Below, one piece after another: positions 29,139 to 61,814 of a stretch of 64,000 nucleotides of DNA (positions are counted from its first letter, which is position 1; each line of letters opens with the position of its first letter). The stretch lies in contig NZ_JAOTIF010000010.1 of the NCBI RefSeq assembly GCF_025628885.1, positions 1-64,000 on the forward strand. Reading direction: 5' to 3'. Source of the DNA: Paraflavisolibacter caeni (lineage in GTDB: Bacteria > Bacteroidota > Bacteroidia > Chitinophagales > Chitinophagaceae). The notes beneath the pieces are model-generated. The model had not been told where the DNA came from. It worked only from the letters and a program-made list of their open reading frames with translations, and searched no databases. A program made the translations under genes and the position numbers.

Positions 29139-30092
29139 ATGAAAGCCTTTCTTCCAATTCTTACCATTATCATTTCATCCAAAATATTAGCACAAAAAGA
29201 TCCTTTACCCTCAAGTGTTGTTGATTGGGAGGGCACACAAACTACAGATACACAAGTTAAGGATACTAGCAGCATTATTGCAGATGGTGCTACATTGAAG
29301 TTAGTATCCAATCAATTCAAGTTTACTGAAGGTCCAGCAATAGATAAACAAGGCAATGTATTTTTCACAGACCAACCTAATGATAAGATCTGGAAGTATG
29401 ATACCGAGGGTAAGCTTTCTGTCTTCCTGGATAAAACAGGGCGCTCCAATGGATTGTATTTTGATCATAAAGGAAATTTACTGGCTTGTGCGGATGCACA
29501 AAATGAACTTTGGAGCATTAGTCCGAAAAAAAAGATCAAAGTTTTATTAAAAGATTATAAAGGGAAGAAATTAAATGGTCCCAATGATCTATGGGCAGAC
29601 TCAAAAGGAGGAATTTATATTACAGATCCCTATTACCAACGCTCTTATTGGACAAGGAAAGAACCTGAAATTATCGAACAAAGAGTCTATTATCTACCGA
29701 AAGGAAGAAAGGAATTAGTTATCGTTGCTGAAGACTTAAAACAGCCAAATGGCATTGTAGGCACGCCTGATGGTAAGTACCTGTATGTTGCTGACATCGG
29801 CGATAATAAAACCTACCGGTATACGATCAATCCCGATGGAACATTAAAAGACCGCCAGTTATTTGTAGAGCAAGGCTCTGATGGAATCACACTGGACAAT
29901 AAAGGCAACCTATACATCACGGGTCATGGCGTTACAGTTTATAATTCAGAAGGGAAAAAGATAGAGCAAATACCTGTGCCTGTAAACTGGACGGCAAATG
30001 TCTCTTTTTATGGTAAGGAAAGAAACAAGCTTTTCATCACTGCATCGGAATCGGTTTTTGTTTTGGATATGAAAGTAAGCGGAGTGGAATGA
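29139..30092 (+). CDS. Exported SMP-30/gluconolactonase family lactonase
   Basis: A 317-residue six-bladed propeller of the SMP-30/gluconolactonase family. The frame is open from 29061, overlapping the previous gene, but the ATG at 29139 begins a proper signal peptide (ISSKILAQ) and is chosen. The metal and substrate residues line up with SMP-30 spacing: Glu64 (FTEGPA), Asn149 (NGPNDLW), Asn204 (QPNGIVG) and Asp248 (GSDGITLD). It would open aldonolactones or uronolactones, such as xylonolactone, to free acids in the periplasm. It is the last gene of the plus-strand xylan run and faces the HAD gene with only one base between the stop codons. A partner dehydrogenase could be one of the exported Gfo/Idh proteins. 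Confidence 0.88.
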   Translation: MKAFLPILTIIISSKILAQKDPLPSSVVDWEGTQTTDTQVKDTSSIIADGATLKLVSNQFKFTEGPAIDKQGNVFFTDQPNDKIWKYDTEGKLSVFLDKTGRSNGLYFDHKGNLLACADAQNELWSISPKKKIKVLLKDYKGKKLNGPNDLWADSKGGIYITDPYYQRSYWTRKEPEIIEQRVYYLPKGRKELVIVAEDLKQPNGIVGTPDGKYLYVADIGDNKTYRYTINPDGTLKDRQLFVEQGSDGITLDNKGNLYITGHGVTVYNSEGKKIEQIPVPVNWTANVSFYGKERNKLFITASESVFVLDMKVSGVE

Positions 30093-48600: not shown

Positions 48601-49053
48601 CATGAGAAATATGCGATGGCCGCCTTTCAGGATATCTTTCAAAACCAGGAAGGAGTCATAGAACTTATGTGTAACGAAACCAGCAGTTGTTATTTTGAAA
48701 ATACAGGCAAAGGGAAGTTTATCAAGCATCCATTGCCGAAAGAGGCGCAGTTTGCTCCCGTCAATGCTATTCTTTGTGACGATTTTGATGGAGACGGCAT
48801 CAATGATTTACTTATTGCGGGGAATGAATATCACACAGAAGTCATGACAGGAAGGTATGATGCATCTTATGGGCTTTTTTTGAAAGGAACAAAAAAGGGT
48901 TTTATACCGGTGCCGCCAATTCGAAGTGGATTTATCGTCAATGGAGACGTGCGGAGTATGACTATCGTAAACACAAAAGACAAAAGCAAGCTGGTTGTTG
49001 TAGGCATTAATGACGATTCTCTAAGGATCTTCTCAGTAAATACTGGTCATTAG
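45697..49053 (+). CDS. Giant FG-GAP/VCBS repeat lipoprotein with ASPIC/UnbV domain
   Basis: An 1118-residue lipoprotein (lipobox LQAC, Cys23). Many beta-propeller repeats carry calcium-binding loops of the DxDxDG type (DFNNDGKKD, DINNDGFDD, DYDKDGDLD, DLDNDGDLD, DADGDGDQD, DFDKDGDLD, DFDGDGIND), spread over two blocks. Between them, about 520-610, is an ASPIC/UnbV module (GNSFNKDGIGSKV, RGYMSSVDRTLIFGLG, VTWSNDKKQTL). Such proteins are common beside SusCD genes in Bacteroidota and are thought to act at the cell surface in binding, but no enzymatic role is established from sequence. It is divergent from SusC with an operator-like site between them and convergent with the RraA pair. Confidence 0.88.
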   Translation: MILPSFFNRITVFLLPLILLQACSGKQSLFTPLPAHKTGIYFKNTITENNNDSTLISEFAYMGGGVGIGDFNNDGKKDIFFSANQVSSRLYINNGHLQFQDQTEKAGVATHVWATGVSIVDINNDGFDDIYLCVFGKNLKQPSKNLLFINQHDLTFKEQAEEYGLADTGYSTQAAFLDYDKDGDLDMYLLNYRLNGPNANDVFPKDLSGKSVANDRLYRNDGDSHHQGHPHFTDVSAAACIKEDGYGLGVAVSDYNGDNWPDIYVANDFLSNDELWLNNKNGTFTNCISRTLKHQSYSSMGADAADINNDALPDVVTLDMMPEYNERKKLTYSFMNYERYELERSLGYEPEFMRNMLQLNNGVQIHQDTALPFFSEIGQLANISETDWSWSVLMADFNNDGWKDMHITNGIGRDYINADFIQYSASLQNLSSEIEKRKLLNKRLAALEHVELKNYLYLNNRDYTFKDQSIDGGIGEPSLSGGAAYADLDNDGDLDLVVNNINKDAFVLLNNTIQKNKPETNHSLQVILRGNSFNKDGIGSKVLVYQKGLVQMQEQMPVRGYMSSVDRTLIFGLGSDIKVDSLVVTWSNDKKQTLTNIRSDQAITLFQNKAVDAFSPAPLPTAHLFTDVTSQRNALYQHKDVPVNDFAWQRLLPQKYSQLGPFITTGDVNGDGMQDFFAGGGFNSKGQLFLQDAHGTFQSIGQIAKDPMQEDSDCLFFDADGDGDQDLLITYGDIRYEDTSGYYTPRLFINDGKGNFQPDHTAIPGSVKTIAGCVRAADFDKDGDLDLFIGGRVSKSYPASPQSFLLQNDHGKFTDVTLKVCPELKKAGMITSVVWADVDQDQQPEIIIAGEWMPIRFFKNIKGRFKEITNMTGLDQNSGMWRSLIAVDADKDGDLDLIAGNLGQNCKYHISPTEPMILFAKDLDKNGSIDPIPFYYIRDGEKSKHLYPAINRDLLADQVPAVKKKFLKHEKYAMAAFQDIFQNQEGVIELMCNETSSCYFENTGKGKFIKHPLPKEAQFAPVNAILCDDFDGDGINDLLIAGNEYHTEVMTGRYDASYGLFLKGTKKGFIPVPPIRSGFIVNGDVRSMTIVNTKDKSKLVVVGINDDSLRIFSVNTGH

Positions 49054-49100: not shown

Positions 49101-50033
49101 CTACCAGGTTCTTTTACTCATTAATTTATCCAATTGAGCCCTGGTCATCTTGCCTAGTTCAGGATGCAGTTCCAGCCATTTCAAAAATTCAGCCTTGATC
49201 TGGTCGTTCCACTGGCTATCTATCTGGCCAGCCGTGTAGTGGCCGGATTTCACCATTTCAAAACCGAATTTATCCTTCCGGATCACAAATTCGGCCGTAT
49301 TCACTACTTGTTCCGCTAAATGAGCTGGCACGAAAAGAACGCCTTCTTTTTGGGCTATCACCAAATCGCCGGGCAAAACCATTGTATTTCCAATACGAAT
49401 AGGGGTATTCAGTCCCATCAGGACCATATCTTCCAAGAAAGAGGGATGGAAATCACGAACAAAAGCATTAAATCCATGAAGCATTCTTAACTCTTGCAAA
49501 TCCCTGGCAGCGCCGTTAAAAATAACTCCATTGCCAGTTTTGGTATAGATCGAATTAGCCAAGGTAGCCCCTATTAAAGTTCCTCCCCCTATTTTACCAA
49601 AGCCATCTGCTACATAAACATCGCCTTTTGACAGCACTTCTATAGGCCAGGAATTCGTATTACCCTTTCTACCTTGTTGGGTCGTTCCACGTTCTTTTAT
49701 CATTTTCTCCACATCGGGCCTGCTAGGCATGAACATAGCCGTAACAGCCCGCCCAGTTACGGGTGTTGTATCATTCACTGTTTTCCAGTTACTTTCAAAC
49801 TGGTTTGTATACCCTTCATTTTTGAGTACAGTCCAGGCATCATCAATCATTATATGTTTCGCTCTTTCCAATAAATTGTCAGCAATTTTAGGCCGACCAT
49901 CCGGAAACCTTTCCCCTTTCCACTCTGCCGTCAAGAAGATGAGCTCCTCTTTCGGAATGGTTTGTGCGCACAATGCACCTCCGCACCCAAGACTAAAAAG
50001 CAGTGATGATATAATAGCCAGATTGCATTTCAT
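49101..50033 (-). CDS. Exported RraA-family protein (aldolase/decarboxylase type), copy 2 of tandem pair
   Basis: A 310-residue RraA/HMG-aldolase-fold protein with an N-terminal signal (SLLFSLGCGGALCAQ; either lipidated at SLGC or cut after CAQ). The core carries the active-site pattern of the divalent-metal 4-hydroxy-4-methyl-2-oxoglutarate aldolase/oxaloacetate decarboxylase group: GGGTLIGATLANSIYTKTG, then FNGAARDLQEL with the RD-x2-E signature, and IGNTMVLPGDLVIAQKEGVLFVP. That suggests catalysis rather than the RNase E-inhibitor role of true RraA. The family normally works in the cytoplasm, so the export signal is unusual. The gene lies 32 bp downstream of its paralog. The substrate is unknown; a 2-keto-3-deoxy sugar acid is one possibility. 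Confidence 0.85.
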   Translation of the reverse strand: MKCNLAIISSLLFSLGCGGALCAQTIPKEELIFLTAEWKGERFPDGRPKIADNLLERAKHIMIDDAWTVLKNEGYTNQFESNWKTVNDTTPVTGRAVTAMFMPSRPDVEKMIKERGTTQQGRKGNTNSWPIEVLSKGDVYVADGFGKIGGGTLIGATLANSIYTKTGNGVIFNGAARDLQELRMLHGFNAFVRDFHPSFLEDMVLMGLNTPIRIGNTMVLPGDLVIAQKEGVLFVPAHLAEQVVNTAEFVIRKDKFGFEMVKSGHYTAGQIDSQWNDQIKAEFLKWLELHPELGKMTRAQLDKLMSKRTW

Positions 50034-50065
50034 TATTTGATCTCTGATTTAAATTGAAAATGAAA

Positions 50066-50998
50066 TTACTGATCGCCTTTACTCAAATAAGCTTCTATAT
50101 CTTTTGAAGTGATGGCTAATTTTTTTGGATATTTAGCCACCCAAGCCCTGAATTCATTTTTGATCTTATCTGACCAGTCACCATGAATTTCTCCTGAGGG
50201 ATATTTACTTTGTTGCAGGAGCACTCTTTCAAATTCATCACGCAGGGCCGTCATTTCAGATGCAGCCACGAGGCCTTCCACCAAGTGGGCAGGAATAAAC
50301 ACAGCACCATATTCATTAGCGAAGGCAATGTCACCAGGAAATACTGTAACCTCACCAATGCGTATTGGGGTATTAATGGCAGTAGGTGTCATATCCTTGA
50401 TGTAAGATGGATCATGTCCTTTTACCCAGGCATTGAAACCTTTTGTATCTTTTAACTCCTGCATATCCCTGACAGATCCATAGAAGATCACCCCTTTCCC
50501 GGTTTTACCATAAATGGCATTACCCAGACTTGAACCTATTAAAGTGCCATCTTTCACTTTTCCAAAGCCGTCTGCTACGTAAATATCACCTTTGGTCAGT
50601 ATATCAATGGGCCAGATATTGATCCCACCTTTCTGAGAACGTCCTTCGGCTTTACCTTCAGCCCTTATCAAGCTATCCAGGTCTGGCCTTGAAGGCATAA
50701 ATTGAGCTGTTACCACCCGACCTACCATAGTCTCACCAGGCTTGAGGATGATCCAGTTCTTTTCTACCTGGTTGCGGTATCCTTTCCGACCCAAATAACC
50801 CCATATTTGCTCCAGGGTACAATATTGCAGTCTTTCCAAAACCAGATCAGACACCATGGGACGCCCATCAGCGAAACGTTCACCTTTCCATTCAGAAGTC
50901 AACATTTTGACGTATTCAGGAGTTGCACCTATACGTTGTGCGTGTGCATACAGATTGCATAAAACAAATGCAATCATGATTACTGCTGTTTTATTCAT
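50066..50998 (-). CDS. Exported RraA-family protein (aldolase/decarboxylase type), copy 1 of tandem pair
   Basis: A 310-residue paralog of the next gene, the same length. The frame opens at 51013, but the ATG at 50998 gives a clear Sec signal (MNKTAVIMIAFVLCNLYAHAQ). The core again has GSSLGNAIYGKTG, FYGSVRDMQEL (RD-x2-E) and IGEVTVFPGDIAFANEYGAVFIP, so both copies keep the catalytic residues of the HMG aldolase group. The conserved N-terminal segment TSEWKGERFADGRPMVSDLVLERL occurs in both copies and is an extension relative to small RraA proteins (about 160 residues). It is the first gene of the pair and divergent from the Gfo/Idh gene. Confidence 0.85.
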   Translation of the reverse strand: MNKTAVIMIAFVLCNLYAHAQRIGATPEYVKMLTSEWKGERFADGRPMVSDLVLERLQYCTLEQIWGYLGRKGYRNQVEKNWIILKPGETMVGRVVTAQFMPSRPDLDSLIRAEGKAEGRSQKGGINIWPIDILTKGDIYVADGFGKVKDGTLIGSSLGNAIYGKTGKGVIFYGSVRDMQELKDTKGFNAWVKGHDPSYIKDMTPTAINTPIRIGEVTVFPGDIAFANEYGAVFIPAHLVEGLVAASEMTALRDEFERVLLQQSKYPSGEIHGDWSDKIKNEFRAWVAKYPKKLAITSKDIEAYLSKGDQ

Positions 50999-51221
50999 AG
51001 CTGGCAAGTACATTTTGAAATGAAATATATCGATATAAATTCTAACAAACAGTTTTCATCAATCTACCTTCATAATTTAGAGTGTATACTGAAATGAATA
51101 TCCCCTAAATAAAAAAGAAAAAATTTTATCTGCCTTATTATGAATGCCAAAAAATAATTATCATAACTTGTATAGATAAATCATCCAGAACCATTCATAC
51201 TCCTTATCCAAAATCCCTGTT

Positions 51222-52340
51222 ATGAGTTCACGACGTGACTTTTTACAAAAGATTTCAGCATCAGCATTTAGTCTGCCTTTTTTAAGCTGGGCCAGTTGCA
51301 CTGACAATAAAAGTTCACAGTATCAAACTCAAGAAGGCCCGGTATTACGGGTTGCCATTATGGGCCTGGGAAGTTATGGAAACCGGGTAGCAGAAGCTAT
51401 GCAATCCTGTAAAAGAGCTAAAGTAGCGGGCGTTATTAGCGGCACTCCTTCTAAAATTAAAGACTGGCAATCCAGGTACAACATTCCAGACAAGAATTGC
51501 TACAATTATGAAAATTTTGACCGCATCAAGGATAATACAGACATAGATGCTGTTTACGTGATCACTCCAAATGCCTTACACCATGACCAGGTGATCAGAG
51601 TAGCCAAAGCCGGAAAGCATGCGATATGCGAAAAACCAATGGCTATTAACGCCAAAGAAGGGCAGGAAATGGTTGATGCCTGTAATAATGCCAATGTAAA
51701 GTTGCTTGTAGGCTACAGGATGCACTTTGAACCAAAGACACTTGAAATTATCCGGATGCGTAAAGAAGGTGAATTGGGTAAAATCATGTTTTTCCAGGGT
51801 TTATCTGGCTTTAGAATTGGTGATCCTAACCAATGGCGGCTGAATAAGCAACTTTCGGGTGGAGGTGCTATGATGGATATTGGAATTTATTCCATCAATG
51901 GTGCACGTTATATGGTAGGTGAAGAACCGGTATGGGTCACAGCACAGGAAACCAAAACCAACCTGGATAAATTCAAGGAAGGTGTTGATGAAACCATTCA
52001 ATTTCAATTAGGTTTTCCCAGTGGAGCAGTCGCATCCTGCTTATCCACCTATAATATGAACTTTTTGGACCGCTTTTACTTAAACGGGCAGGAAGGTTTT
52101 GCTGAGTTGCAACCGGCAACCGGATATGGTCCCATCCAAGGGCGCACAAATAAAGGTGAGCTGACCCAGCCTCATATGACACACCAAACAGTGCAAATGG
52201 ACGAAATGGCTGCAATTATCCTGGATGGCAAACAACCTATTGTAGCTGTAGATGGAGCAGAAGGAGTAAAAGATCTCAAAATTATCGACGCTATCTATTT
52301 GGCCGTGCAAACTGGTAAAAAAATAGATGTAAAGTTGTAG
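51222..52340 (+). CDS. Tat-type Gfo/Idh/MocA oxidoreductase, glucose-fructose-oxidoreductase-like
   Basis: A 372-residue oxidoreductase with a twin-arginine signal (SRRDFLQKISASAF, Arg4-Arg5), so it is likely exported folded with cofactor bound. The Rossmann motif GLGSYG is at 48-53 and the catalytic-site CEKPM at 136-140; the second domain has GGGAMMDIGIYSINGARYM and the C-terminal DEMAAIILDGKQPI. This is the layout of glucose-fructose oxidoreductase and related periplasmic enzymes that oxidise an aldose to its lactone. The gene lies 2 bp from the next one, a GH67-like hydrolase, so they form an operon. An aldonolactone product would suit the lactonase at 29139 and the sugar-acid operon at 54-61 kb, which is inference. 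Confidence 0.9.
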   Translation: MSSRRDFLQKISASAFSLPFLSWASCTDNKSSQYQTQEGPVLRVAIMGLGSYGNRVAEAMQSCKRAKVAGVISGTPSKIKDWQSRYNIPDKNCYNYENFDRIKDNTDIDAVYVITPNALHHDQVIRVAKAGKHAICEKPMAINAKEGQEMVDACNNANVKLLVGYRMHFEPKTLEIIRMRKEGELGKIMFFQGLSGFRIGDPNQWRLNKQLSGGGAMMDIGIYSINGARYMVGEEPVWVTAQETKTNLDKFKEGVDETIQFQLGFPSGAVASCLSTYNMNFLDRFYLNGQEGFAELQPATGYGPIQGRTNKGELTQPHMTHQTVQMDEMAAIILDGKQPIVAVDGAEGVKDLKIIDAIYLAVQTGKKIDVKL

Positions 52341-52342
52341 CA

Positions 52343-54511
52343 ATGAAAAGAGTATTGCTCCTTATTACCCTTGCTTTTTTCTTTCTGAACCATTCAGCCT
52401 TTTCTCAAACTTTTGACCTGATTTTTGATCCATCCCTTCCACAGTCTACTTATGCAGCTGAACGACTTAAAAACAGTCTTTTGCATCATGGTTATGCTTT
52501 ACAAAAAGAACAAGCTGAATACCAGATCAGCCTTGATACAAGCGATCACCAATTAGGTACAGAGGCATTCTCTATACAGTTGGAAGGCAAAAAGATCATT
52601 ATTCATGGTGGGGACGCCAGGGGGCTCATCTATGGAGCTCTTTCACTTGCAGAAGATATCAATAACGGAATTCGACTTCAACAAATCAAACCGAAAAGCG
52701 AGCGTCCAAATCTTATGTTCCGTGGTATCAAGTTTGACTTGCCATGGGATACCTACCGACACAGTTATGCGCTCGATCTACATCAAGAGACCTGCAAAGA
52801 TTTGAATTATTGGAAAGAGTTTTTGGATATGATGGTGGAGAACCGCTTCAATGCCCTTACACTTTGGAATCTTCATCCATATACTTATCTGATCAGGCCT
52901 AAAAACTTTCCGGAAGCAAGTCCTTTTCATGAAAAGGAAATGAAGGAATGGCAGCACCTGTTCCGCAGTATATTCCAGATGGCCAGGGAAAGAGGTATTG
53001 ACACCTATCTCGTTCCCTTTAACATCTTTGTAAGTCCTGAATTTTCAAAAGCCTATCATGTAGCCATGGATAACCTGCAGCATGATTATTTTGTAAAAGG
53101 CGATACTTCTGAAATCATTAAACGATATACACGTGAGTGTGTCGCACAGGTGCTCCAGGAATATCCAGATCTTACAGGATTTGGTCTTACCCTTGGTGAA
53201 GGCATGGGAGGAATGACTCCACAGCAAAGAGAAGATTGGATGGAAGAAACGATTATTGAAGGCATGCGCATGGCCAAGCGTAAATCAAAATTGATCCATC
53301 GCATACCATTTTCCAGTACTAGCGGGTCGTTAGGACCTACGAGTATAGAAACAGAAAAACTAACCAGGAAAAGAATTGAAGAACAAGGTGCATTAGATTT
53401 TATTGAGGGGCCCGTATGGGCAGATCTGAAATACAACTGGTCGCATGCACATTCTACTCCAAAGTTGGTAAAAGTACACGGCGGAAAGTTATACGATACT
53501 TACTTTACACCAGAACCAAAGGAGTACAAGATCATCTGGACAGCGCGGAATGAAGATTTCTTTTGCTTGCGCTGGAGTGTTCCCGACTTTATCCGTAAAC
53601 ATATTGCTACCAACAACCAGTCTTATGTAGGTGGTTATTTAATAGGTTCGGAAACCTATATCCCTGCCAAAGATTATTTTACCAGGATCAATACAGGTGT
53701 TGATTGGAAATATGCTTTTCAAAGGCAATGGCTGTTTTATAAACTCTGGGGTAGATTACTATACAACCCGTCAACACCTGATGAAGTTTTCAGCGCAGAG
53801 TTTATTAAGCGATATGGAAAGCAAGCTGCTTCCTTATTAGAAGCAAACGCTCTTGCCGGAACCACTCCCCTACGTTTAGCTTCTTCGTTTGACTTTACCT
53901 GGGATTTTACCTTGTATAGTGAAGGATTTATGGCCCTGGACAATACAACCAGGAGAGCTGAGTATATATCTATTGACAGGCTCATTAACCAGCCTCCTAC
54001 TGACCCGGACTTTATATCTATAAAGGATTATGTTGCCATAATAACAACTGGCGGAACTTTTGATTCCAACAAAATCACCCCACTTATCCTTGCCAGTATG
54101 CTGGAAAAAGATTGTCATAAAGCCCTGGAGTTGGTAAAAAAAATAAATACTTCACGGAATGCTTCACTGATGTATGAAGTGGCAGATGTGAAAGCCTGGT
54201 CCAATTTAGGGTTGCATTTTGCTGAAAAGTTAAGAGGAGGTGTAGCACTTCAAATCTATCGAGTGAAAGGAGGTGAAGAAAATAAAAACAATGCCGTAAA
54301 ACACCTAAAAAATGCACTGAGTTTTTGGGACAAGGTTATTGATATAACACGACCTTTATACAACGATATGCCCCTGGTTCATTTTAGTGAAAGTGACAAT
54401 AAAAATTGGAAAGAAAACGACCATCTTCGTTTCCATTGGGAAAAGCTCAGACCTGATGTTGCCAGGGATATTGAAACGGCAAGAAATACAAAGGAGTATG
54501 TGGCTAAATAA
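52343..54511 (+). CDS. Exported GH67-related putative glycoside hydrolase, uncharacterized family (copy 2)
   Basis: A 722-residue exported protein (signal peptide to about residue 21, SAFSQ). The N-terminal alpha/beta domain ends GGDARGLIYGALSLAEDI, as in alpha-glucuronidases. The barrel begins MFRGIKFDLPWDTYRH and includes MMVENRFNALTLWNLHPY and DLTGFGLTLGEGMGGM, where Glu286 aligns with Glu318 of the 920-residue paralog and with the catalytic acid of GH67. Also noted are FIEGPVWADLKYNW, IIWTARNEDFFCLRW and GGYLIGSETYIPAKDYF, possible further active-site strands. It lacks the C-terminal beta domain of the longer copy. It starts 2 bp after the Tat-type oxidoreductase gene and converges with the IlvD/EDD gene. 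Glycosidase activity is predicted only. Confidence 0.82.
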   Translation: MKRVLLLITLAFFFLNHSAFSQTFDLIFDPSLPQSTYAAERLKNSLLHHGYALQKEQAEYQISLDTSDHQLGTEAFSIQLEGKKIIIHGGDARGLIYGALSLAEDINNGIRLQQIKPKSERPNLMFRGIKFDLPWDTYRHSYALDLHQETCKDLNYWKEFLDMMVENRFNALTLWNLHPYTYLIRPKNFPEASPFHEKEMKEWQHLFRSIFQMARERGIDTYLVPFNIFVSPEFSKAYHVAMDNLQHDYFVKGDTSEIIKRYTRECVAQVLQEYPDLTGFGLTLGEGMGGMTPQQREDWMEETIIEGMRMAKRKSKLIHRIPFSSTSGSLGPTSIETEKLTRKRIEEQGALDFIEGPVWADLKYNWSHAHSTPKLVKVHGGKLYDTYFTPEPKEYKIIWTARNEDFFCLRWSVPDFIRKHIATNNQSYVGGYLIGSETYIPAKDYFTRINTGVDWKYAFQRQWLFYKLWGRLLYNPSTPDEVFSAEFIKRYGKQAASLLEANALAGTTPLRLASSFDFTWDFTLYSEGFMALDNTTRRAEYISIDRLINQPPTDPDFISIKDYVAIITTGGTFDSNKITPLILASMLEKDCHKALELVKKINTSRNASLMYEVADVKAWSNLGLHFAEKLRGGVALQIYRVKGGEENKNNAVKHLKNALSFWDKVIDITRPLYNDMPLVHFSESDNKNWKENDHLRFHWEKLRPDVARDIETARNTKEYVAK

Positions 54512-54579
54512 TTTTGATAATAGTTTATAAATAGAAGCGAATCCCCTAAAAAAGGAAAAAAAATATATTTGTTTCAGTT

Positions 54580-56298
54580 TTAATGCAGGTCACGGGTTAC
54601 TTCCGAGCCCGATCCGCCACGCAGAATATCTAAATCAGCTCCGAGATTCGCTTGTTGAACATGGTCGATATAAAATTTCACATAGCCCCTGGTTGCCAAA
54701 GGTTCCGGAGCCGTCCAGGCAGTTTTGCGTTTGGTTAATTCTTCTTCGCTTATATCCAGATGGAGTGTTCTACCTTTTACGTCCAACTCAATGAAATCAC
54801 CATCTTTCACCAATGCCAAGGTTCCGCCAATAGCCGATTCAGGAGCTACATGCAATACGACTGTACCGGCAGCTGTACCGCTCATTCTGCCATCGGAAAT
54901 GCGCACCATATCCTGAACGCCTTTTCTTAATAATTTTTCAGGCAGGTCAACGTTGCCCACTTCGGGCATGCCCGGATAACCTTTAGGCCCAACGCCTTTT
55001 AAAACGATAACTGAGTTTTCGTCTATTTCAAGATCAGGATCGTCTATCCGTTGATGATAGTCTTCCATACTTTCAAACACAACAGCCTTGCCCCTATGCT
55101 TCATTAGTTCCGGGGAAGCTGCTGAAGGTTTAATGATCGCACCACCTTCACAAAGATTTCCTTTCAACACAGCAATACCCGCCTCTTTTTTAAAGGGTTG
55201 ATCAATAGAAGCAATTACATCTTGATTGTAACAAATGTTATTTGCATTATTATCACCAAGCTTACTTCCATTCACTGTTATAGCATCATTATGCAAGTAA
55301 TCTTTTAACTCTTTCAACACGACAGGTAATCCTCCTGCATAATAAAAATCCTCCATTAAATATTTACCTGAAGGTTTGAGATTAACCAGCAATGGAATTT
55401 TACTTCCTATCCTGTCAAAATCTTCCAAACTCAGGTCAATGCCAATTCTCCCTGCAATTGCCAGCAGGTGAATGATAAAGTTGGTTGACCCGCCTACTGC
55501 AGCATTCACGACAATAGCATTTTCAAAAGCTTCACGAGTCAATATTTTAGAAATTGCCAGGTCTTCTTTTACCATTTCCACGATCCTTCTTCCAGATAGT
55601 TGCGCCATCACTTTTTTACGAGCGTCAACGGCAGGAATAGCGGCAGCACCTGGCAAAGTAAGCCCTAATGCTTCCACCATGCAGGCCATCGTAGAAGCGG
55701 TACCCATGGTCATGCAGTGGCCCTGACTTCTTGCCACCCCTATTTCCATTTCCAATATATCAGCTTCGGAATAATTACCTACTTTTTGTTTTTCCTTTAT
55801 GGCCCAATTAAAAGATCCTGAGCCAACACATTCTCCTCTGAATCTCCCATTGAGCATCGGACCACCTGGAACAACAATCGTCGGAAGGTCAACACTACAG
55901 GCTCCCATGACCGTAGAAGGTGTTGTTTTATCACAACCCGTTAAAAGCACGACACCATCCAGCGGATTTGCACGAATAGATTCTTCTACATCCATGCTTG
56001 CCAGATTTCTAAAGAGCATGGTAGTAGGCCGCATAATCGTTTCACCCAAAGAAGTTACCGGGAACTCTAATGGAAATCCACCTGCTTCTACAACACCCCT
56101 CTTTACAATCTCTGCAAAATCCCGCAGGTGTCCGTTGCAAGGTGTCAATTCAGACCAGGTATTACAAATTCCAATTACAGGCTTGCCTCTAAAATAATCA
56201 TCTGGGTAACCTTGATTGCGCAACCATGACCGATGTACAAAGCCCATTTTATCAGACTTTCCAAACCAATCATAGCTTCTTAGTTTTTTATCTGCCAT
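54580..56298 (-). CDS. IlvD/EDD-family sugar-acid dehydratase (pentonate dehydratase type)
   Basis: A 572-residue Fe-S dehydratase without signal peptide. The three iron-sulfur cysteines Cys54 (PCNGH), Cys122 (GCDKTTP) and Cys195 (GHCMTMGT) have exactly the spacing (68 and 73) of characterised L-arabinonate/D-xylonate dehydratases, and the catalytic serine region SDGRMSGTAAGTV is present. It removes water from an aldonic acid to give the 2-keto-3-deoxy acid in the cytoplasm. Length and motifs place it with sugar-acid dehydratases rather than branched-chain amino-acid IlvD. It is the last gene of a five-gene operon with an ALDH and an FAH protein, together a Weimberg-type route to 2-oxoglutarate. 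Which pentonate is used cannot be told. Confidence 0.92.
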   Translation of the reverse strand: MADKKLRSYDWFGKSDKMGFVHRSWLRNQGYPDDYFRGKPVIGICNTWSELTPCNGHLRDFAEIVKRGVVEAGGFPLEFPVTSLGETIMRPTTMLFRNLASMDVEESIRANPLDGVVLLTGCDKTTPSTVMGACSVDLPTIVVPGGPMLNGRFRGECVGSGSFNWAIKEKQKVGNYSEADILEMEIGVARSQGHCMTMGTASTMACMVEALGLTLPGAAAIPAVDARKKVMAQLSGRRIVEMVKEDLAISKILTREAFENAIVVNAAVGGSTNFIIHLLAIAGRIGIDLSLEDFDRIGSKIPLLVNLKPSGKYLMEDFYYAGGLPVVLKELKDYLHNDAITVNGSKLGDNNANNICYNQDVIASIDQPFKKEAGIAVLKGNLCEGGAIIKPSAASPELMKHRGKAVVFESMEDYHQRIDDPDLEIDENSVIVLKGVGPKGYPGMPEVGNVDLPEKLLRKGVQDMVRISDGRMSGTAAGTVVLHVAPESAIGGTLALVKDGDFIELDVKGRTLHLDISEEELTKRKTAWTAPEPLATRGYVKFYIDHVQQANLGADLDILRGGSGSEVTRDLH

Positions 56299-56325
56299 AA
56301 TGCGTGGTACAATAAGGAGCGTAAT

Positions 56326-57903
56326 TTATTTTTTTCTTTCACCATTCACTAATCGCCAAATGCTTAAAGAATTATCATCCTTTAATTCTGCAGGCAATAA
56401 GCTTTGGGGAAAATCCTGATAACATACAGGACGTGTAAAACGATGAATAGCCAGTGTTCCCACAGATGTTGTTCTGCTGTCTGTTGTAGCAGGAAAAGGA
56501 CCCCCATGCACCATAGCATGACAAACTTCCACACCTGTAGGATATCCATTGATCAATACTCTACCTACTTTTTGTTCCAGAATTGTTACTAATTCTGCGT
56601 ATTCATTTAAATCCTCCTCTGTGCCTTGAATGGTAGCCGTAAGATGCCCACTCAATTGTTTTGCCACCTGTAATAATTCTTCTTTGCTATCTGCAGTAAC
56701 TGTTAGCGTGGAAGGTCCAAAAACTTCTTCTTCCAATTCATGCCTTTGCTGAAACAAAGCTGCTGTTGCATGCAAAACATGTGGTGTACCACGAACACCT
56801 TCACCATCACTTTTCCCTTTAGCTAAAATACTTACACCATCGATGCTGCTTAACTTTTCTATGCCTTTCTGGTAGTTGTTTTGAATACCTGAAGTAAGCA
56901 TGACACCGGCATTTATTTCATTAACCTGCCTTGATAATTGATCTATGAATTTGCTTTCATTTTCTGTTTGCCCGATAAATACCAGACCCGGATTTGTACA
57001 AAATTGCCCTACTCCCAAGGTTACAGAAGCAGCTAATTCCTGGGCTATCTTTTCTCCTTTCTCATTTAATATGCGTGGAAGGATAAAAACAGGATTTGTG
57101 CTGCCCATTTCTGCGTAAACCGGAATTGGACTGGGTCTTTTATTTGCCTCATCAAACAGAGCCTTACCGCCATAATATGAGCCGGTAAAACCAATTGCTT
57201 TAATTAAAGGGTGACGTACAATGGTCATTCCAACATCTGTGCTTCTTCCCTGTACCATAGAAAACGTTCCCTCCGGCATACCTGTTTTCCTGACGGCATT
57301 TTGAATAGCCAGACCAACCAGTTCAGAAGTTCCCGGGTGAGCGGGATGTGCTTTGAAAATTACAGTGCAACCCGCAGCGAGTGCAGCAACCGTATCTCCG
57401 CCAGCTACCGAAAAAGCTAAAGGAAAATTAGAAGCGCCAAATACACCTACGGGTCCCAGGGCTTTTTGCATACTACGTATATCAGGCTTCGGAAGTGGTT
57501 TACGATCAGGGTCTGCAGTATCAATCCTTGCATCTACCCATGAGCCTTCGCGAAGCAATTGAGCAAATAGTTTTAACTGGCCAACCGTTCTTCCCCGCTC
57601 CCCTGTCAATCTTGCTTCGGGCAAACCACTTTCTTCCATTGCCCGTACAATTAATTGATCATTTAAAGCTAAAATCTCATCAGCTATAGCTTCTAAAAAT
57701 TCAGCCTTTTCCTTTCCTGTCTTGTTACGATATTGTTGAAAAGCATGGTTTGCTTTTTCAATGGCTTCATTAATTTCATTTGGTGAGGCTTCATAAAAAG
57801 CAGGTTCCAGCTTTTTGCCGGTTGCGGGGTTTTCACAAAAGAAAGTTGCGTTGCTTTCATTGGAAAGCTTATTGCCGATCATATTTTTTCCTGTCAATTC
57901 CAT
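56326..57903 (-). CDS. Aldehyde dehydrogenase, 2-oxoglutarate semialdehyde (2,5-dioxovalerate) dehydrogenase type
   Basis: A 525-residue NAD(P)-dependent aldehyde dehydrogenase. Catalytic Cys302 lies in GVGQFCTNPG, Glu265 in YAEMGSTNP, and Asn159 in GASNFPLAFS. The wording GPVGVFGASNFPLAFSVAGGDT and EGTFSMVQG is characteristic of the KGSADH group, which oxidises 2-oxoglutarate semialdehyde to 2-oxoglutarate in pentose and hexarate breakdown. The place in the operon is decisive: one base separates it from an FAH-family dehydratase that would make the semialdehyde, and it is 27 bp before an IlvD/EDD dehydratase. Cytoplasmic; product enters the TCA cycle. Confidence 0.92.
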   Translation of the reverse strand: MELTGKNMIGNKLSNESNATFFCENPATGKKLEPAFYEASPNEINEAIEKANHAFQQYRNKTGKEKAEFLEAIADEILALNDQLIVRAMEESGLPEARLTGERGRTVGQLKLFAQLLREGSWVDARIDTADPDRKPLPKPDIRSMQKALGPVGVFGASNFPLAFSVAGGDTVAALAAGCTVIFKAHPAHPGTSELVGLAIQNAVRKTGMPEGTFSMVQGRSTDVGMTIVRHPLIKAIGFTGSYYGGKALFDEANKRPSPIPVYAEMGSTNPVFILPRILNEKGEKIAQELAASVTLGVGQFCTNPGLVFIGQTENESKFIDQLSRQVNEINAGVMLTSGIQNNYQKGIEKLSSIDGVSILAKGKSDGEGVRGTPHVLHATAALFQQRHELEEEVFGPSTLTVTADSKEELLQVAKQLSGHLTATIQGTEEDLNEYAELVTILEQKVGRVLINGYPTGVEVCHAMVHGGPFPATTDSRTTSVGTLAIHRFTRPVCYQDFPQSLLPAELKDDNSLSIWRLVNGERKK

Positions 57904-57904
57904 A

Positions 57905-58741
57905 CTACTTAACAGTGTTAACGAGTGTGCCTATAGGTTGAATTGTAATACGTATCTCATCATCTTTTTGCAATGTAAAATCCGAGGAAGGAACAATGCC
58001 AGTTCCAGTCATCACCAGACAACCATAAGGAAATGAAGTTTCTCTATAAAGGTAAGATACCAGATCCTGAAATTTCCGTTTGATCTGATTGATGGCGATC
58101 TCTCCTTTAAATACAACATTTCCCTGGCGTATAATCTGCATTTGAATCAACGTGTCAGTAGGCAGAGGTTCTTCAGAAACATATATACAAGGACCGATAG
58201 CAGCACTACCATCGTAGGTTTTCGCCTGGGGAAGGTAGAGAGGATTCTCGCCCTCAATGCTTCTTGAGCTCATATCATTACCTACAGTATAACCTATGAT
58301 CTTTCCTGAGGAAGTTACCGCTAATGTCAATTCAGGTTCTGGTACATCCCAAGTAGAATCTTTGCGAATGGTTACTTTTTCGCCAGGTCCTACAGCACGG
58401 TATGGAGCTGATTTAAAAAATATCTCCGGACGATCGGCTTCGTATACCCTGGCATAGAACTCACTGCCGCCGGTATTTTTGGATTCTTCCTGCCTTCCAA
58501 CCTTACTTCTGTAATAAGTAACGCCGCATGCCCATATTTCCTGGCTTTGTATAGGTGCCTGAATATCTGATTGAATAATTTTTTTGGCTTCCGGATCCGG
58601 GTTTAAAACTTTGATTGCGTTTTCCAGTTTTGAATAAAGCTGGTCATCATTTACATAAGTATCCCAGCACTGGTCTTTGAGCAAATAATAACTATCCAAT
58701 TTTTCTACGACAATTCCTTTTTTTGTTTTATACAATTTCAT
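57905..58741 (-). CDS. FAH-family protein, probable 2-keto-3-deoxypentonate dehydratase
   Basis: A 278-residue fumarylacetoacetate-hydrolase-fold protein. Metal ligands are visible as Glu135 and Glu137 in VPEPELTL and Asp156 in GNDMSSRS, with Lys174 in PQAKTYDG. The segment IWACGVTYYRSK and the substrate loop GSEFYARVYEADRPEIFFKS are typical of the branch that dehydrates 2-keto-3-deoxy-D-arabinonate/xylonate to 2-oxoglutarate semialdehyde. The stop is one base before the ALDH start, so the two steps are coupled in expression. Alternative FAH activities (acylpyruvase, hydrolase) are less likely in this operon. Confidence 0.88.
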   Translation of the reverse strand: MKLYKTKKGIVVEKLDSYYLLKDQCWDTYVNDDQLYSKLENAIKVLNPDPEAKKIIQSDIQAPIQSQEIWACGVTYYRSKVGRQEESKNTGGSEFYARVYEADRPEIFFKSAPYRAVGPGEKVTIRKDSTWDVPEPELTLAVTSSGKIIGYTVGNDMSSRSIEGENPLYLPQAKTYDGSAAIGPCIYVSEEPLPTDTLIQMQIIRQGNVVFKGEIAINQIKRKFQDLVSYLYRETSFPYGCLVMTGTGIVPSSDFTLQKDDEIRITIQPIGTLVNTVK

Positions 58742-58775
58742 CGTCTTGTTTTATTAAGAATTAAAAATGGCATGT

Positions 58776-60074
58776 TCATCTTTCGAAAGGTAAAATGGTG
58801 CTTGATTTTTGCGTTAATTTTTGCTTGCGTGCATTCTTTTCATTCACTGCAAAAATTGTAAACATTGCCGATAACAAAACTGAACCAGCCATGAAAATAT
58901 AAGATGCACCGAAACCTCCGGTTGTTCCATTTAAATAACCAACAAAATAGGAACCGGCAAATGATCCCAGTGCTCCAAAACTATTGATTATTGCCATAGC
59001 TCCACCAACGACATTAGCAGGTAATATTTCCGGTATGATCGCAAAGAATGGACCATAAGGAGCATACATTGCAGTACCTGCAATAACAAGCAATATAAAC
59101 GATAACCAGAAATTAGTGGTTCCTACTAAATACGAACCGTAAAAAGCAAGTCCTGCGATCAAGAGAAGTGGCCAGACAAAGGATTTTCTCTTTAGACTTT
59201 TGTCAGATAAATAGGAGGTGCACAGCATGCCAAGGATTGCGAAAATATAGGGTATTGATGCCAGCCATCCAGTTCTTACGATATTCATATCTGGTGCTGC
59301 TTTAATAATAGAAGGAAGCCACATAACAAATCCATAAACACCAATACTCCAAAGAGCATATTGGAGACATAATAAAATTACTGTTCTAGATTTGAAGGCT
59401 ACTACATAGTTTTTAACTGGCTTGATTCCTTGTTGCTCATTCAGCAATTGTGTTTCAAGTTCTTGTTTCTCGTTCTGGGTTAACCATTTTGCATCGTTAG
59501 GTCTGTCATCTACCAGTCGCCACCAAAAGAAAGCCCAAATGACAGCAGGTAAGCCTTCCAAAATGAACATCCACCTCCAGCCTAAAGCATCGATCAAATA
59601 CCCGGATAAGATGGACATCCAGAGAATGGTTGCTGGGTTGCCCAGAATTAAAAAAGTATTGGCCCGCGAACGTTCAGATTTTGTAAACCACCGGCTTAAT
59701 AAAATGAGCATGGCTGGAAATACAGCACTCTCCACAATACCGAGTATAAAACGAATAGCCATTAAAACGGTTATATTACTGATCATTCCGGTAGCAGCAG
59801 CGCATATACCCCATAGGATCAATGACCAAAATATCAACTTCTTAGCACTTTTCCTGGCTGCATAATGTGCTCCAGGAATTTGGAAAATGAAATAGCCAAG
59901 AAAGAAAAGAGAAGCTAACAGAGAAGACATGGCTGCAGTAATGTGCAGGTCCTCAGCCATTTTACCAGCCGCAGCGAATCCGAAATTGGCACGGTCAAGA
60001 TAAGCCATACTATAGGTGACAAAAACAAATGGAATGAGACGGTACCAACGGGAAGGAGCAATCGCTTTATCCAT
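58776..60074 (-). CDS. MFS transporter of the ACS (anion:cation symporter) family, probable sugar-acid importer
   Basis: A 432-residue inner-membrane protein with about 12 segments. The family hallmark TYSMAYLDRANFGFAA is in the first segment, followed by GYFIFQIPGAHYAARKSAKK and LGIVESAVFPAMLILLSRWF. ACS members such as ExuT, GarP and GudP import hexuronates and aldarates with protons. Being between the enolase-superfamily dehydratase and FAH genes (26 and 34 bp gaps), it probably brings in the aldonic acid, or the 2-keto-3-deoxy acid made outside by the Tat-type dehydratase. The substrate is inferred from the operon. Confidence 0.92.
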   Translation of the reverse strand: MDKAIAPSRWYRLIPFVFVTYSMAYLDRANFGFAAAGKMAEDLHITAAMSSLLASLFFLGYFIFQIPGAHYAARKSAKKLIFWSLILWGICAAATGMISNITVLMAIRFILGIVESAVFPAMLILLSRWFTKSERSRANTFLILGNPATILWMSILSGYLIDALGWRWMFILEGLPAVIWAFFWWRLVDDRPNDAKWLTQNEKQELETQLLNEQQGIKPVKNYVVAFKSRTVILLCLQYALWSIGVYGFVMWLPSIIKAAPDMNIVRTGWLASIPYIFAILGMLCTSYLSDKSLKRKSFVWPLLLIAGLAFYGSYLVGTTNFWLSFILLVIAGTAMYAPYGPFFAIIPEILPANVVGGAMAIINSFGALGSFAGSYFVGYLNGTTGGFGASYIFMAGSVLLSAMFTIFAVNEKNARKQKLTQKSSTILPFER

Positions 60075-60100
60075 GGATTATTGATGAAAAAGGAATACTA

Positions 60101-61591
60101 TTAACTGAAAATGCGGTCGTGTGAATTTTTATCATTCCAATCAGGTGTAGGAGCAAAATAGCTTTTATCACCTGGATGAAGATGTTGTTTCACTACGTCT
60201 TCATTCAATTCGATTCCTAATCCGGGTGCTGTAAGCGGAAGATTTGCAAATCCTTTTGTGATTAATTTCCTACCATCGGTAGTTTTCACCAGATCCTCCC
60301 ACCAGGTTAAGTCTACAGAATGGTGTTCCAAGGCTAAAAAGTTTTGTGTTGCGGCAGCACAATGCACATTGGCCATAAAAGAAACAGGAGTGCCTGCCTG
60401 GTGCATGGCCATTGCAATTCCGTGCTCTTCAGCATAATCGCCAATTCTTTTCGTTTCCAGAAGTCCGCCAGATGAAGCCAGATCAGGGTGAACAATATCC
60501 ACTGCACGTGCATCTATCAACGGTTTAAAATTCTTCAACAGATAAATATCTTCACCAGTAAGTGTAGGAGTTTCCAAGGCATCTGTCATCATTTTCCACT
60601 GGTCAGTATATTCCCATGAAACTATATCTTCCAGCCATGCGAGCCTGTATTTTTCCAATGCCCGGCCCAGACGTATGCCATTATTATAATCAAAATGCCC
60701 ATAGTGATCTGTTGATAACGGAATGTCGTAGCCTACCATGCCACGCACATTCTCTACAATTCGAGAAAGTTCTTCAAGGCCTTTATCTGTAATTTGTATT
60801 TGGGTAAAAGGATGTAGTGTATTGCCATAAGACATATAATTGCTTAGATCTCCCCACTGAGCTAAAACTCCTTGTTGATTTTGCCAGAATTTTGAGTTTA
60901 CCAATGTATCGGGTTTGCCTTTTAATTCGCCGATTGAAACATCCATCTTCAGCCAGGTATATCCCTGATCATTTACACGATAATTAATCAGCTTTTTTTG
61001 TTCTTCAGGGGATCCTGCTTCCGGCGTATCGGCATATAATCTAATTTTATCCCGGTACATTCCACCCAGCAATTGCCAGGCAGGAACATTATATGCCTTA
61101 CCACATAAATCCCATAGTGCCATTTCTATAGCACAAACTCCTCCTGCCTGACGAGACTGGCCTCCAAACTGCCTGATCTTTTTAAAGATCATTTCTACAT
61201 TACAGGGATTCTCACCCAGTATCCGGCTTTTTAAAATCAATGCATAGCGTACATCTGCGCCATCTCTTACTTCACCTAATCCATAAATCCCCTGATTGGT
61301 ATCAATTCGGATAATGGCAGTACGACCCAAAACTGTTGTAACACAATACCGCAAGTCTGTGATCTTCAAGTCTGTTGGTTTGGAAAAACGGCTTACTTTG
61401 GAAGTACTTTGTGCAACCACTTCTTCTATAGGCGAAAACATAAAGGCTCCACCCAAGGCTATACCACCCAAAGCAGTTTTCTTTAAAAAGGAACGCCGGC
61501 TATTTTCCTGTACGTTTTCTTTATTGACTTCTTCCTTGTTGTCCTGTTCTGTGATACCAAGTCTGGATAAGAACCTTTGTGATGGAGACAT
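60101..61591 (-). CDS. Tat-exported enolase-superfamily sugar-acid dehydratase (mandelate racemase subgroup)
   Basis: A 496-residue enolase-superfamily enzyme with an unusual N-terminal 60-70 residues: a charged stretch, then the twin-arginine signal SRRSFLKKTALGG (Arg32-Arg33) and hydrophobic segment to VVAQ. The body has the capping domain and barrel with metal ligands Asp295 (STDHYGHFD), Glu321 (WLEDIV) and Glu347 (TGEDIY), the KxD pair Lys215/Asp217 (LKMDV) and His397 (AMHQAGTP), all as expected for acid-sugar dehydratases of the mannonate/galactonate/gluconate type. The substrate is a sugar acid, identity unknown. It is the first gene of the sugar-acid operon. A Tat signal on this normally cytoplasmic enzyme suggests dehydration in the periplasm. 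Confidence 0.9.
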   Translation of the reverse strand: MSPSQRFLSRLGITEQDNKEEVNKENVQENSRRSFLKKTALGGIALGGAFMFSPIEEVVAQSTSKVSRFSKPTDLKITDLRYCVTTVLGRTAIIRIDTNQGIYGLGEVRDGADVRYALILKSRILGENPCNVEMIFKKIRQFGGQSRQAGGVCAIEMALWDLCGKAYNVPAWQLLGGMYRDKIRLYADTPEAGSPEEQKKLINYRVNDQGYTWLKMDVSIGELKGKPDTLVNSKFWQNQQGVLAQWGDLSNYMSYGNTLHPFTQIQITDKGLEELSRIVENVRGMVGYDIPLSTDHYGHFDYNNGIRLGRALEKYRLAWLEDIVSWEYTDQWKMMTDALETPTLTGEDIYLLKNFKPLIDARAVDIVHPDLASSGGLLETKRIGDYAEEHGIAMAMHQAGTPVSFMANVHCAAATQNFLALEHHSVDLTWWEDLVKTTDGRKLITKGFANLPLTAPGLGIELNEDVVKQHLHPGDKSYFAPTPDWNDKNSHDRIFS

Positions 61592-61791: not shown

Positions 61792-61814
61792 AAAACCTCC
61801 ATACTGGAGGTTTT
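61792..61814 (-). terminator. Rho-independent terminator after the GH3 gene
   Basis: A 10 bp stem (AAAACCTCCA / TGGAGGTTTT) with a 3-nt loop. On the minus strand it runs into a T-tract, about 55 bp after the GH3 stop, and separates that gene from the sugar-acid operon, which begins 200 bp further on. Confidence 0.85.

Follow-up and report, generated by a model that had tools for sequence, protein, structure and literature searches.

A putative extracytoplasmic start to a sugar-acid pathway in Paraflavisolibacter caeni

The 64,000-nucleotide stretch of Paraflavisolibacter caeni DNA analysed here, hereafter the window, probably encodes, on balance, the extracytoplasmic opening steps of an oxidative pathway for sugar acids, in which a sugar would be oxidised and dehydrated in the periplasm before import into a cytoplasmic Weimberg route. 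The dehydration of sugar acids and aldol-type reactions on them are regarded as cytoplasmic, and among the matches listed in the literature searched we found no description of exported RraA or exported dehydratases. The genes named in the initial annotation are all intact and lie at the positions it gave:

29139..30092, plus strand: SMP-30 lactonase of PUL 1; Sec-like N-terminus by eye
49101..50033, minus strand: RraA-like protein 1 (310 aa); Pfam RraA-like 63.8 bits; Sec-like signal; metal-motif position occupied by Ala156
50066..51013, minus strand: RraA-like protein 2 (315 aa); Pfam 64.2 bits; Sec-like signal; metal-motif position occupied by Ser161
51222..52340, plus strand: Gfo/Idh aldose oxidoreductase (AAOR/GFOR group); 5a02 303.7 bits; Tat-like signal
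52343..54511, plus strand: glycosidase-like protein, predicted exported; N-terminal half like alpha-D-galacturonidase; Sec-like call
54580..56298, minus strand: IlvD/EDD aldonate dehydratase; PRK06131 910.6 bits; without export signal
56326..57903, minus strand: aldehyde dehydrogenase (NADP+) group, ALDH; 3v4c 478.5 bits, 1eyy 477.7 bits; without export signal
57905..58741, minus strand: FAH-family 2-keto-3-deoxy-pentonate dehydratase; PDB 2q18 204.1 bits; without export signal
58776..60074, minus strand: MFS transporter, D-galactonate transporter subfamily; TIGR00893 276.2 bits, under the cut-off of 395
60101..61591, minus strand: type A enolase-superfamily protein resembling acid-sugar dehydratases; Tat-like signal; heads its operon
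61792..61814, minus strand: terminator-like hairpin, stem of 10 pairs, between a GH3 gene and the enolase operon

The enolase, MFS, FAH, ALDH and IlvD genes follow one another in that order in a tight operon, the two RraA genes form a tandem pair with a 32 bp gap, and the glycosidase-like gene lies 2 bp downstream of the Gfo/Idh gene. Its product matches NCBIfam AlphGalctur at 148.9 bits, far under the cut-off of 1300, and PDB BPa0997 at 109.8 bits. PUL 1 also carries a second Gfo/Idh protein, predicted to be exported and with Oxidoreduct_C. The hairpin has the longest stem of all terminator-like sites in the region, which number 16 vs 12.0 expected; sigma-70 promoter-like matches gave no signal above chance (33 vs 32.9 expected), and Rfam no match at gathering scores within 40000-64000.

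Tat and Sec signals were called with heuristic scans written for the analysis, and export is throughout a prediction. The Gfo/Idh N-terminus, MSSRRDFLQKISASAFSLPFL, has an SRRDFL motif and a hydrophobic stretch and was called Tat-like, as was the enolase-superfamily protein, which reads SRRSFLKKTALGGIALGG from residue 31 and matches NCBIfam TAT_signal_seq at 21.8 bits (cut-off 16.7). R32, R33 and F35 are invariant in 25/25 aligned enolases, and the genome encodes TatC (203.5 bits). Both RraA-like proteins have Sec-type N-termini, ending in CAQ (49101-50033) and AHAQ (50066-51013), and were called Sec. No signal was called by the Tat/Sec scan in IlvD, ALDH or FAH; for the MFS carrier, as a membrane protein, the scan is uninformative. 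The Tat signals, the Sec signals of the RraA pair and the lack of signals on FAH, ALDH and IlvD, all proposed in the initial annotation, were thus borne out by the scan. Among its five exported proteins four were called and SMP-30 was not: its N-terminus, MKAFLPILTIIISSKILAQ, is Sec-like by eye only, which makes this fifth item the weaker one.

Relaxed Tat-like calls were obtained in 86/88 type A and 34/34 type B enolases (120/122 together) and in 6/6 close Gfo/Idh (AAOR) relatives, the window protein included, vs 0/67 in controls (FGGY, AraC, IlvD, ALDH, FAH, SDR); SusD gave 1/46, RraA 3/165 and unassigned neighbour ORFs 38/1031. Sec-like calls reached 152/165 in RraA vs 0/74 in controls of these six kinds. 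SBF (53/54) and MFS (9/12) membrane proteins were also positive, and the Sec scan therefore cannot separate a signal from the first helix of a membrane protein; it called 36/50 SusC (14 missed) and 4/8 SMP-30 proteins, missing that of the window. ORFs cut by a locus end were left out of these counts; the repeated stretches L153, L161 and L186 are still present in some of them. The genome's own enolase paralogue (L114_07) received no signal call and its distant RraA paralogue shows none by eye.

Among solved proteins the Gfo/Idh protein is closest to Caulobacter aldose-aldose oxidoreductase (AAOR) 5a02 at 303.7 bits, followed by GFOR at 233-235 bits and the next protein at 88 bits; the D-xylose 1-dehydrogenase Gfo6 model scores 210 bits (cut-off 350). 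K138, in an EKP motif, and Y223 line up with K104 and Y189 of 5a02, which we take to be catalytic. By sequence, then, the protein is a member of the AAOR/GFOR group. A glycoside 3-dehydrogenase identity was rejected (29-32 bits vs 304 for AAOR). The excerpt of PMC4628093 used here reports Tat signals on Caulobacter AAOR and GFOR and calls the role of the former unclear. Together with the AAOR likeness, these signals argue for the extracytoplasmic sugar oxidation suggested earlier.

The metal ligands D295, E321 and E347 of the enolase-superfamily protein are kept in 131, 131 and 129, and H397 and D370, the His/Asp dyad of the C-terminal barrel, in 131 and 127 of 131 aligned enolases (380-560 aa; repeats L153, L161 and L186 removed); ligands and dyad are intact in 88/88 type A and in 122/122 type A plus B sequences. 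This dyad is a mark of enolase-superfamily acid-sugar dehydratases, and D-x-H after the first metal ligand marks the mannonate/galactonate dehydratase type. The latter occurs in 0/88 type A sequences, the window protein included, vs 34/34 of type B. All 88 type A enolases read D-H-[YFQIM]-G-[HQ], the window protein D-H-Y-G-H. Since type A is without D-x-H, dehydratase chemistry is not assured; the Tat-like signal and the intact metal and His/Asp residues nevertheless favour the extracytoplasmic dehydratase-type enzyme of the initial annotation, as a prediction.

The RraA fold of the window pair is supported by Pfam and by AlphaFold/Foldseek, in which the predicted fold of RraA 2 is closest to HMG/CHA aldolase 3noj (E 8.3e-14). 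The active-site motif of that aldolase, presumably D-x20-R-D, appears here as S-x20-R-D (Ser161) and A-x20-R-D (Ala156), the aspartate aligned with Asp102 being absent. Among 160 RraA relatives longer than 270 aa (the same repeats removed), 107 have Asp at this position and 53, both window copies among them, have Ser or Ala; R182 and D143 are invariant, and D148 and D183 are present in 159/160. Excerpts of two papers bear on function: most homologues keep one of two motifs (PMC5065237), and the RraA-like Flavobacterium enzyme FlDet is a dehydratase/decarboxylase, not an aldolase (PMC8563752). Cleavage of the keto-acid by the window RraA proteins, as had been supposed, is thereby weakened, and without the motif aspartate it is doubtful in this bacterium. 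A role as RNase regulator was put aside because the proteins are predicted to be exported and adjoin dehydratase-type genes.

IlvD scores 910.6 bits on PRK06131 (cut-off 539) and 859.8 on the L-arabinonate dehydratase model, just under its cut-off of 882; in the PDB it matches 8ej0 (854 bits), 5j83 (776 bits) and L-arabinonate dehydratase 9evv (774 bits). The closest PDB entry to FAH is 2q18, 2-keto-3-deoxy-D-arabinonate dehydratase (204.1 bits). NCBIfam matches of ALDH are weak, the best being 2,5-dioxovalerate dehydrogenase at 122.9 bits vs a cut-off of 750, and from family alone we propose that it is an alpha-ketoglutaric semialdehyde dehydrogenase. The operon from enolase to IlvD thus resembles a Weimberg set, and the earlier suggestion of a cytoplasmic Weimberg-type route finds support in this set, whose IlvD, FAH and ALDH, without signals, are encoded in the operon of the putatively exported enolase. 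With IlvD as a second dehydratase in the same operon, periplasmic dehydration looks redundant unless the substrates differ.

The exported RraA-enolase pair recurs in relatives, as judged from predicted signals and adjacent gene pairs. Of 124 adjacent pairs (some repeated stretches included), 117 are co-directional and 7 opposed, with a median gap of 51 bp. Across 147 genomes of the family, RraA is found in 23/23 with a type A enolase vs 12/124 others (Fisher 1.9e-18); in the phylum it is patchy (25/395 genomes), and among 32 family genomes with a close AAOR, 9 are without RraA. In 123 RraA loci, where L153, L161 and L186, which repeat other fetched stretches (100% protein matches), are still counted, SusC genes occur in 45, PanS-like or MFS carriers in 66, AAOR in only 5, and IlvD, FAH and ALDH in 7, 6 and 5, so the full window combination is rare elsewhere. 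Two or three of the last three lie near the module in six of the other loci fetched (L088, L093, L095, L096, L099, L196). In L079, AAOR, RraA, enolase and MFS genes are co-directional with gaps of 54-60 bp; L171 and L178 have the order RraA-enolase-PQQ dehydrogenase-Tat protein-MFS. A PanS-like carrier cluster occurs in 55 of the 123 loci, its scanned member scoring 234.5 bits on the ketopantoate transporter PanS (cut-off 400); the window has none, and the genome's three SBF-family matches all lie on other contigs. In some loci a Tat DgaE-like protein stands in place of the enolase, and some have a Tat RidA; the DgaE-like and PanS-like assignments rest on scores under curated cut-offs.

In the pathway that we propose, an aldose released in the periplasm, probably a pentose, would be oxidised by the Tat-exported Gfo/Idh enzyme, which would hold a bound nicotinamide cofactor regenerated on a second sugar, as in its characterised relatives. 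The lactone would open spontaneously or by a lactonase. The initial annotation assigned this step to an exported SMP-30 protein; that protein has a Sec-like N-terminus by eye and is encoded in a different cluster, at a distance of about 19 kb. The Tat-exported enolase-superfamily enzyme, from its family and conserved residues, would turn the aldonate into a 2-keto-3-deoxy acid, and the MFS carrier would import either acid. In the cytoplasm, IlvD would by family dehydrate imported aldonate, FAH would convert 2-keto-3-deoxy-pentonate to alpha-ketoglutaric semialdehyde and ALDH this to 2-oxoglutarate. The Sec-exported RraA pair would draw on this periplasmic pool of 2-keto acids; two thirds of the relatives examined retain the metal-dependent pyruvate aldolase motif, of which the window copies have lost one residue. 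The periplasmic start envisaged earlier is favoured by predicted export, enzyme families and recurrence; against it stand the weakened keto-acid cleavage and the lactonase in the other cluster.

The main alternative is a complete extracytoplasmic Entner-Doudoroff-like route standing beside the cytoplasmic Weimberg route of the window: the exported dehydratase would make the 2-keto-3-deoxy acid, RraA would split it into pyruvate and an aldehyde, and a carrier would import the pyruvate. The aspartate kept in 107/160 RraA relatives, the invariance or near-invariance of R182, D143, D148 and D183, the PanS-like carriers near RraA and the Tat DgaE-like substitute (with Tat RidA in some loci), which could also yield the 2-keto-3-deoxy acid, all point this way. 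We nevertheless consider it unlikely, with both window copies among the 53/160 that have Ser or Ala, no PanS-like carrier in the window, DgaE-like and PanS-like scores under cut-offs, and FlDet, in the excerpt consulted, using its 2-keto-3-deoxy acid as a dehydratase/decarboxylase. For Bacteroidota at large, a modular and wholly extracytoplasmic pathway of this kind is doubtful; it would combine a periplasmic oxidase (AAOR or PQQ) with one of several interchangeable exported dehydratases (Tat enolase A/B, or a DgaE-like ammonia-lyase that, like its RidA partner, bears a Tat signal), an exported RraA acting as aldolase and an importer of keto-acids, and if true, sugars would be cut to pyruvate-level acids before entering the cell.

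Two further readings dispense with aldonate breakdown. The signals might be real and the proteins non-catabolic, the enolase being an epimerase and RraA a non-catalytic binding or assembly protein for surface sugars, as the absence of D-x-H in 88/88 type A enolases and the departure of the window RraA from the aldolase motif would allow. This seems improbable given the intact metal and His/Asp residues and the company of RraA, since SusC (45/123), MFS or PanS-like carriers (66/123) and, beside some loci, cytoplasmic sugar-acid genes point to catabolism. It is quite improbable that the exported proteins form a pathway of the 3-keto-glycoside type with no link to aldonates, in which Gfo/Idh would attack C3 of a glycoside oxidatively and the others would process keto-glycosides: weak matches to NCBIfam disaccharide/glycoside 3-dehydrogenase families of Bacteroides (BT_2158, BT_2159), the second exported Gfo/Idh (Oxidoreduct_C) in PUL 1 and the glycosidase-like gene 2 bp downstream of Gfo/Idh agree with such a pathway, but the 29-32 bits of those matches compare with 210 for Gfo6 and 304 for AAOR, and the neighbouring genes look like a complete pentonate set.

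The periplasmic front end with cytoplasmic Weimberg route is thus the reading that we retain, and the similar exported enzyme set of many relatives suggests a partly periplasmic breakdown of sugar. If true, part of sugar-acid breakdown would run in the periplasm independently of ATP and of free NAD(P), with the cell importing acids rather than sugars. We know of no physiological role for periplasmic aldose-aldose oxidoreductases or exported RraA proteins; the pathway would suggest one for both.

Among known systems, the Bacteroides 3-keto-glycoside pathway (BT_2158, BT_2159) likewise has Bacteroidota Gfo/Idh dehydrogenases with sugars as substrates, although the window protein matches those models weakly and that pathway has, to our knowledge, no exported dehydratase. 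The RraA pair has the fold, the Arg-Asp motif and the majority of active-site residues in common with HMG/CHA aldolase and the RraA family, and differs in predicted export, length (315 aa with signal vs 238 in 3noj) and the absent motif Asp. FlDet of Flavobacterium UMI-01 is likened by description, not sequence, as an RraA-like Bacteroidota enzyme; according to the excerpt of PMC8563752 it gives alpha-ketoglutaric semialdehyde from 2-keto-3-deoxy-D-glucarate and, unlike the window proteins, has 237 aa and a native N-terminus without signal and was purified from cell extract. Periplasmic GFOR and Caulobacter AAOR resemble the Gfo/Idh protein in their Tat signal, the 304-bit match and the aligned catalytic Lys and Tyr, whereas the window protein adjoins exported RraA and a Tat enolase. 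The known Weimberg route is cytoplasmic and shares with the window an operon that joins IlvD, a FAH-family enzyme and an aldehyde dehydrogenase assigned by family to a carrier of the sugar-acid type; here, in contrast, Tat signals are borne by the enzyme proposed for the first oxidation and by an additional, enolase-type dehydratase.

The best-supported reading of positions 49101-61591 is a route whose locations and activities are predicted: an aldose would be oxidised and the aldonate dehydrated in the periplasm, import would proceed by an MFS carrier, and a cytoplasmic Weimberg-like set would complete the route. The genome comprises 7.0 Mb in 89 contigs. All genes of the interval are intact and fall into three groups by strand and spacing:

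49101-50033 and 50066-51013, minus strand: RraA 1 and RraA 2, gap 32 bp
51222-52340 and 52343-54511, plus strand: Gfo/Idh protein and glycosidase-like gene, gap 2 bp
60101-61591, 58776-60074, 57905-58741, 56326-57903 and 54580-56298, minus strand: enolase-superfamily protein, MFS, FAH, ALDH and IlvD, gaps 26, 34, 1 and 27 bp
61814-61792: terminator-like hairpin, parting the enolase group from the GH3 gene upstream

The N-terminal half of the exported protein encoded at 52343-54511, 2 bp 3' of the Gfo/Idh gene, resembles alpha-D-galacturonidase and the PDB protein BPa0997; it may supply the sugar for Gfo/Idh. PUL 1 encodes a second exported Gfo/Idh-type protein (26631-28010, plus strand; Oxidoreduct_C domain 464.7 bits, Sec-like N-terminus), and a long protein with DxDxDG-type repeats, FG-GAP/ASPIC-like by eye (45697-49053, plus strand), lies between SusC-like and RraA genes.

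A heuristic scan bore out most export signals of the initial annotation, with Tat calls for Gfo/Idh and enolase, Sec calls for both RraA proteins and no call for IlvD, ALDH or FAH. The Sec signal proposed for the SMP-30 putative lactonase of PUL 1 (29139-30092, plus strand) is Sec-like by eye only, the scan giving no call. An NCBIfam Tat signal model matches the enolase above cut-off, and TatC is encoded in the genome. For two paralogues of the same genome, the enolase L114_07 received no signal call in the scan and a distant RraA (contig C24, 63026-63724) has no signal by eye. Relaxed Tat-like calls in the window and in loci fetched from relatives were obtained for 86/88 type A enolases (the window's group), 34/34 type B and 6/9 others, as well as 6/6 AAOR (aldose-aldose oxidoreductase), 15/15 DgaE-like and 8/9 RidA-like proteins, the DgaE, PanS and Rid names deriving from one scanned member per cluster with model scores under curated cut-offs. 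By comparison, such calls numbered 0/67 for six control kinds, 1/46 for SusD, 3/165 for RraA and 38/1031 for unassigned ORFs.

The best solved relatives of Gfo/Idh are AAOR (5a02, 304 bits) and GFOR (233-235 bits), the next reaching only 88, and the catalytic Lys and Tyr of AAOR are aligned. Both characterised enzymes carry Tat signals according to a passage of PMC4628093, which calls the role of AAOR in Caulobacter unclear. Close AAOR relatives (at least 69% identity) occur in 32 of 147 family genomes. RraA accompanies 23 of these, which means that AAOR is not confined to genomes with RraA.

The closest NCBIfam models of the enolase are galactonate, gluconate and mannonate dehydratase, every score under cut-off, and its best solved relative, 2qq6, is titled mandelate racemase-like and no more. 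Of the metal ligands, D295 and E321 are kept in all 131 enolases compared and E347 in 129; H397 occurs in 131 and D370 in 127. Types A (88 proteins) and B (34) show no change at any of these five positions. Type A reads D-H-Y-G-H in 53 proteins and D-H-F-G-H in 32, with close variants in 3; type B has D-x-H at the same place in 34/34. Of the other members of the enolase group, FAH matches 2-keto-3-deoxy-D-arabinonate dehydratase (204 bits), IlvD matches 8ej0 (854 bits) and L-arabinonate dehydratase 9evv (774 bits), ALDH falls with 3v4c/1eyy (478 bits; weak on named models), and MFS resembles the D-galactonate transporter subfamily, under the model cut-off.

RraA was found in 35 of 147 family genomes and any enolase match in 42. 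All 23 genomes with type A (two partial) have RraA vs 12 of 124 others (Fisher 1.9e-18). Only 25 of 395 phylum genomes encode RraA, hence its distribution is patchy. In a named genome collection at least 563 of 594 candidate stretches encode a relative; the best 80 of these, a set silent on other phyla, are all Bacteroidota by title, among them Pontibacter, Larkinella, Spirosoma, Dyadobacter, Algoriphagus and Cyclobacterium. The fetched loci hold 124 adjacent RraA/enolase-superfamily pairs, 117 co-directional (median gap 51 bp). Near RraA, in 123 loci of unequal length excluding the window, we counted enolase (96), PanS-like carrier (55), SusC (45), DgaE-like (12), MFS (11), IlvD (7), FAH (6) and ALDH (5), and an AAOR (5), PQQ (9) or GSDH (6) dehydrogenase in 20. 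In L088, L093, L095, L096, L099 and L196 the module has two or three of IlvD, FAH and ALDH nearby.

Two further arrangements were observed. Type B enolase, RraA and PanS-like carrier repeatedly have an AraC regulator and an FGGY gluconokinase-like kinase as neighbours (clusters c3 and c7; e.g. L092, L094), a hint at phosphorylation of the imported acid or of a by-product. In Adhaeribacter aquaticus (L157:11-17836) nine enolase-type ORFs, one of just 212 aa at the locus start, surround three RraA genes on a single strand, a local amplification.

Several gene orders are telling. L079 has co-directional AAOR (Tat), RraA (Sec), type A enolase (Tat) and MFS, with gaps of 54-60 bp. L171:4806-11927 and L178:3925-10740 share a five-gene row of RraA, type A Tat enolase, PQQ dehydrogenase, Tat protein and MFS, with a PQQ oxidase where the window has its Gfo/Idh protein; their Tat protein is weakly alike (28%) to the window ORF 2107-3276, UxuA-like by eye. 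The order enolase, PanS-like carrier, RraA, RraA in L163 links the tandem pair to type A enolase, despite their separate groups in the window. L107 and L110 are without enolase and have Tat DgaE-like protein, Sec amidohydrolase, SMP-30, RraA and PanS-like carrier, L107 also Tat RidA. Since three exported enzyme kinds thus interchange round RraA and a carrier, a 2-keto-3-deoxy acid is suggested as the predicted common periplasmic intermediate. DgaE-like proteins occur in 13/147 family genomes, 12 of them with RraA.

L105-L113 (e.g. L107:2179-11715) hold a parallel exported set, its members varying by locus: Tat DgaE-like, Tat RidA, Sec amidohydrolases, SMP-30, GSDH with a cytochrome c domain, RraA and PanS-like carrier. 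It perhaps serves an amino sugar acid, suggesting periplasmic breakdown of glucosaminate-like acids.

Cleavage of the keto-acid by RraA, also proposed initially, fared unevenly. By fold, the RraA 2 AlphaFold model (mean pLDDT 83) comes nearest to HMG/CHA aldolase 3noj and to further members of the RraA family. Among 160 RraA proteins R99, D143, R182 and D228 are invariant, D148 and D183 are kept in 159, and the position aligned with aldolase Asp102 is D (107), S (40) or A (13). This position belongs to the D-x20-R-D active-site motif of the aldolase. A passage of PMC5065237 states that most homologues bear one of two motifs required for metal binding and catalysis. Cleavage is plausible in most relatives examined; in the window it is doubtful, because S161 (RraA 2) and A156 (RraA 1) replace the motif D. 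A second RraA lies within two genes of 37/53 S and A forms vs 20/107 D forms, and all 22 adjacent RraA-RraA pairs, the window's included, are co-directional. The Flavobacterium RraA-like enzyme FlDet acts on a 2-keto-3-deoxy acid according to PMC8563752, but as a dehydratase/decarboxylase, and its native N-terminus is without a signal.
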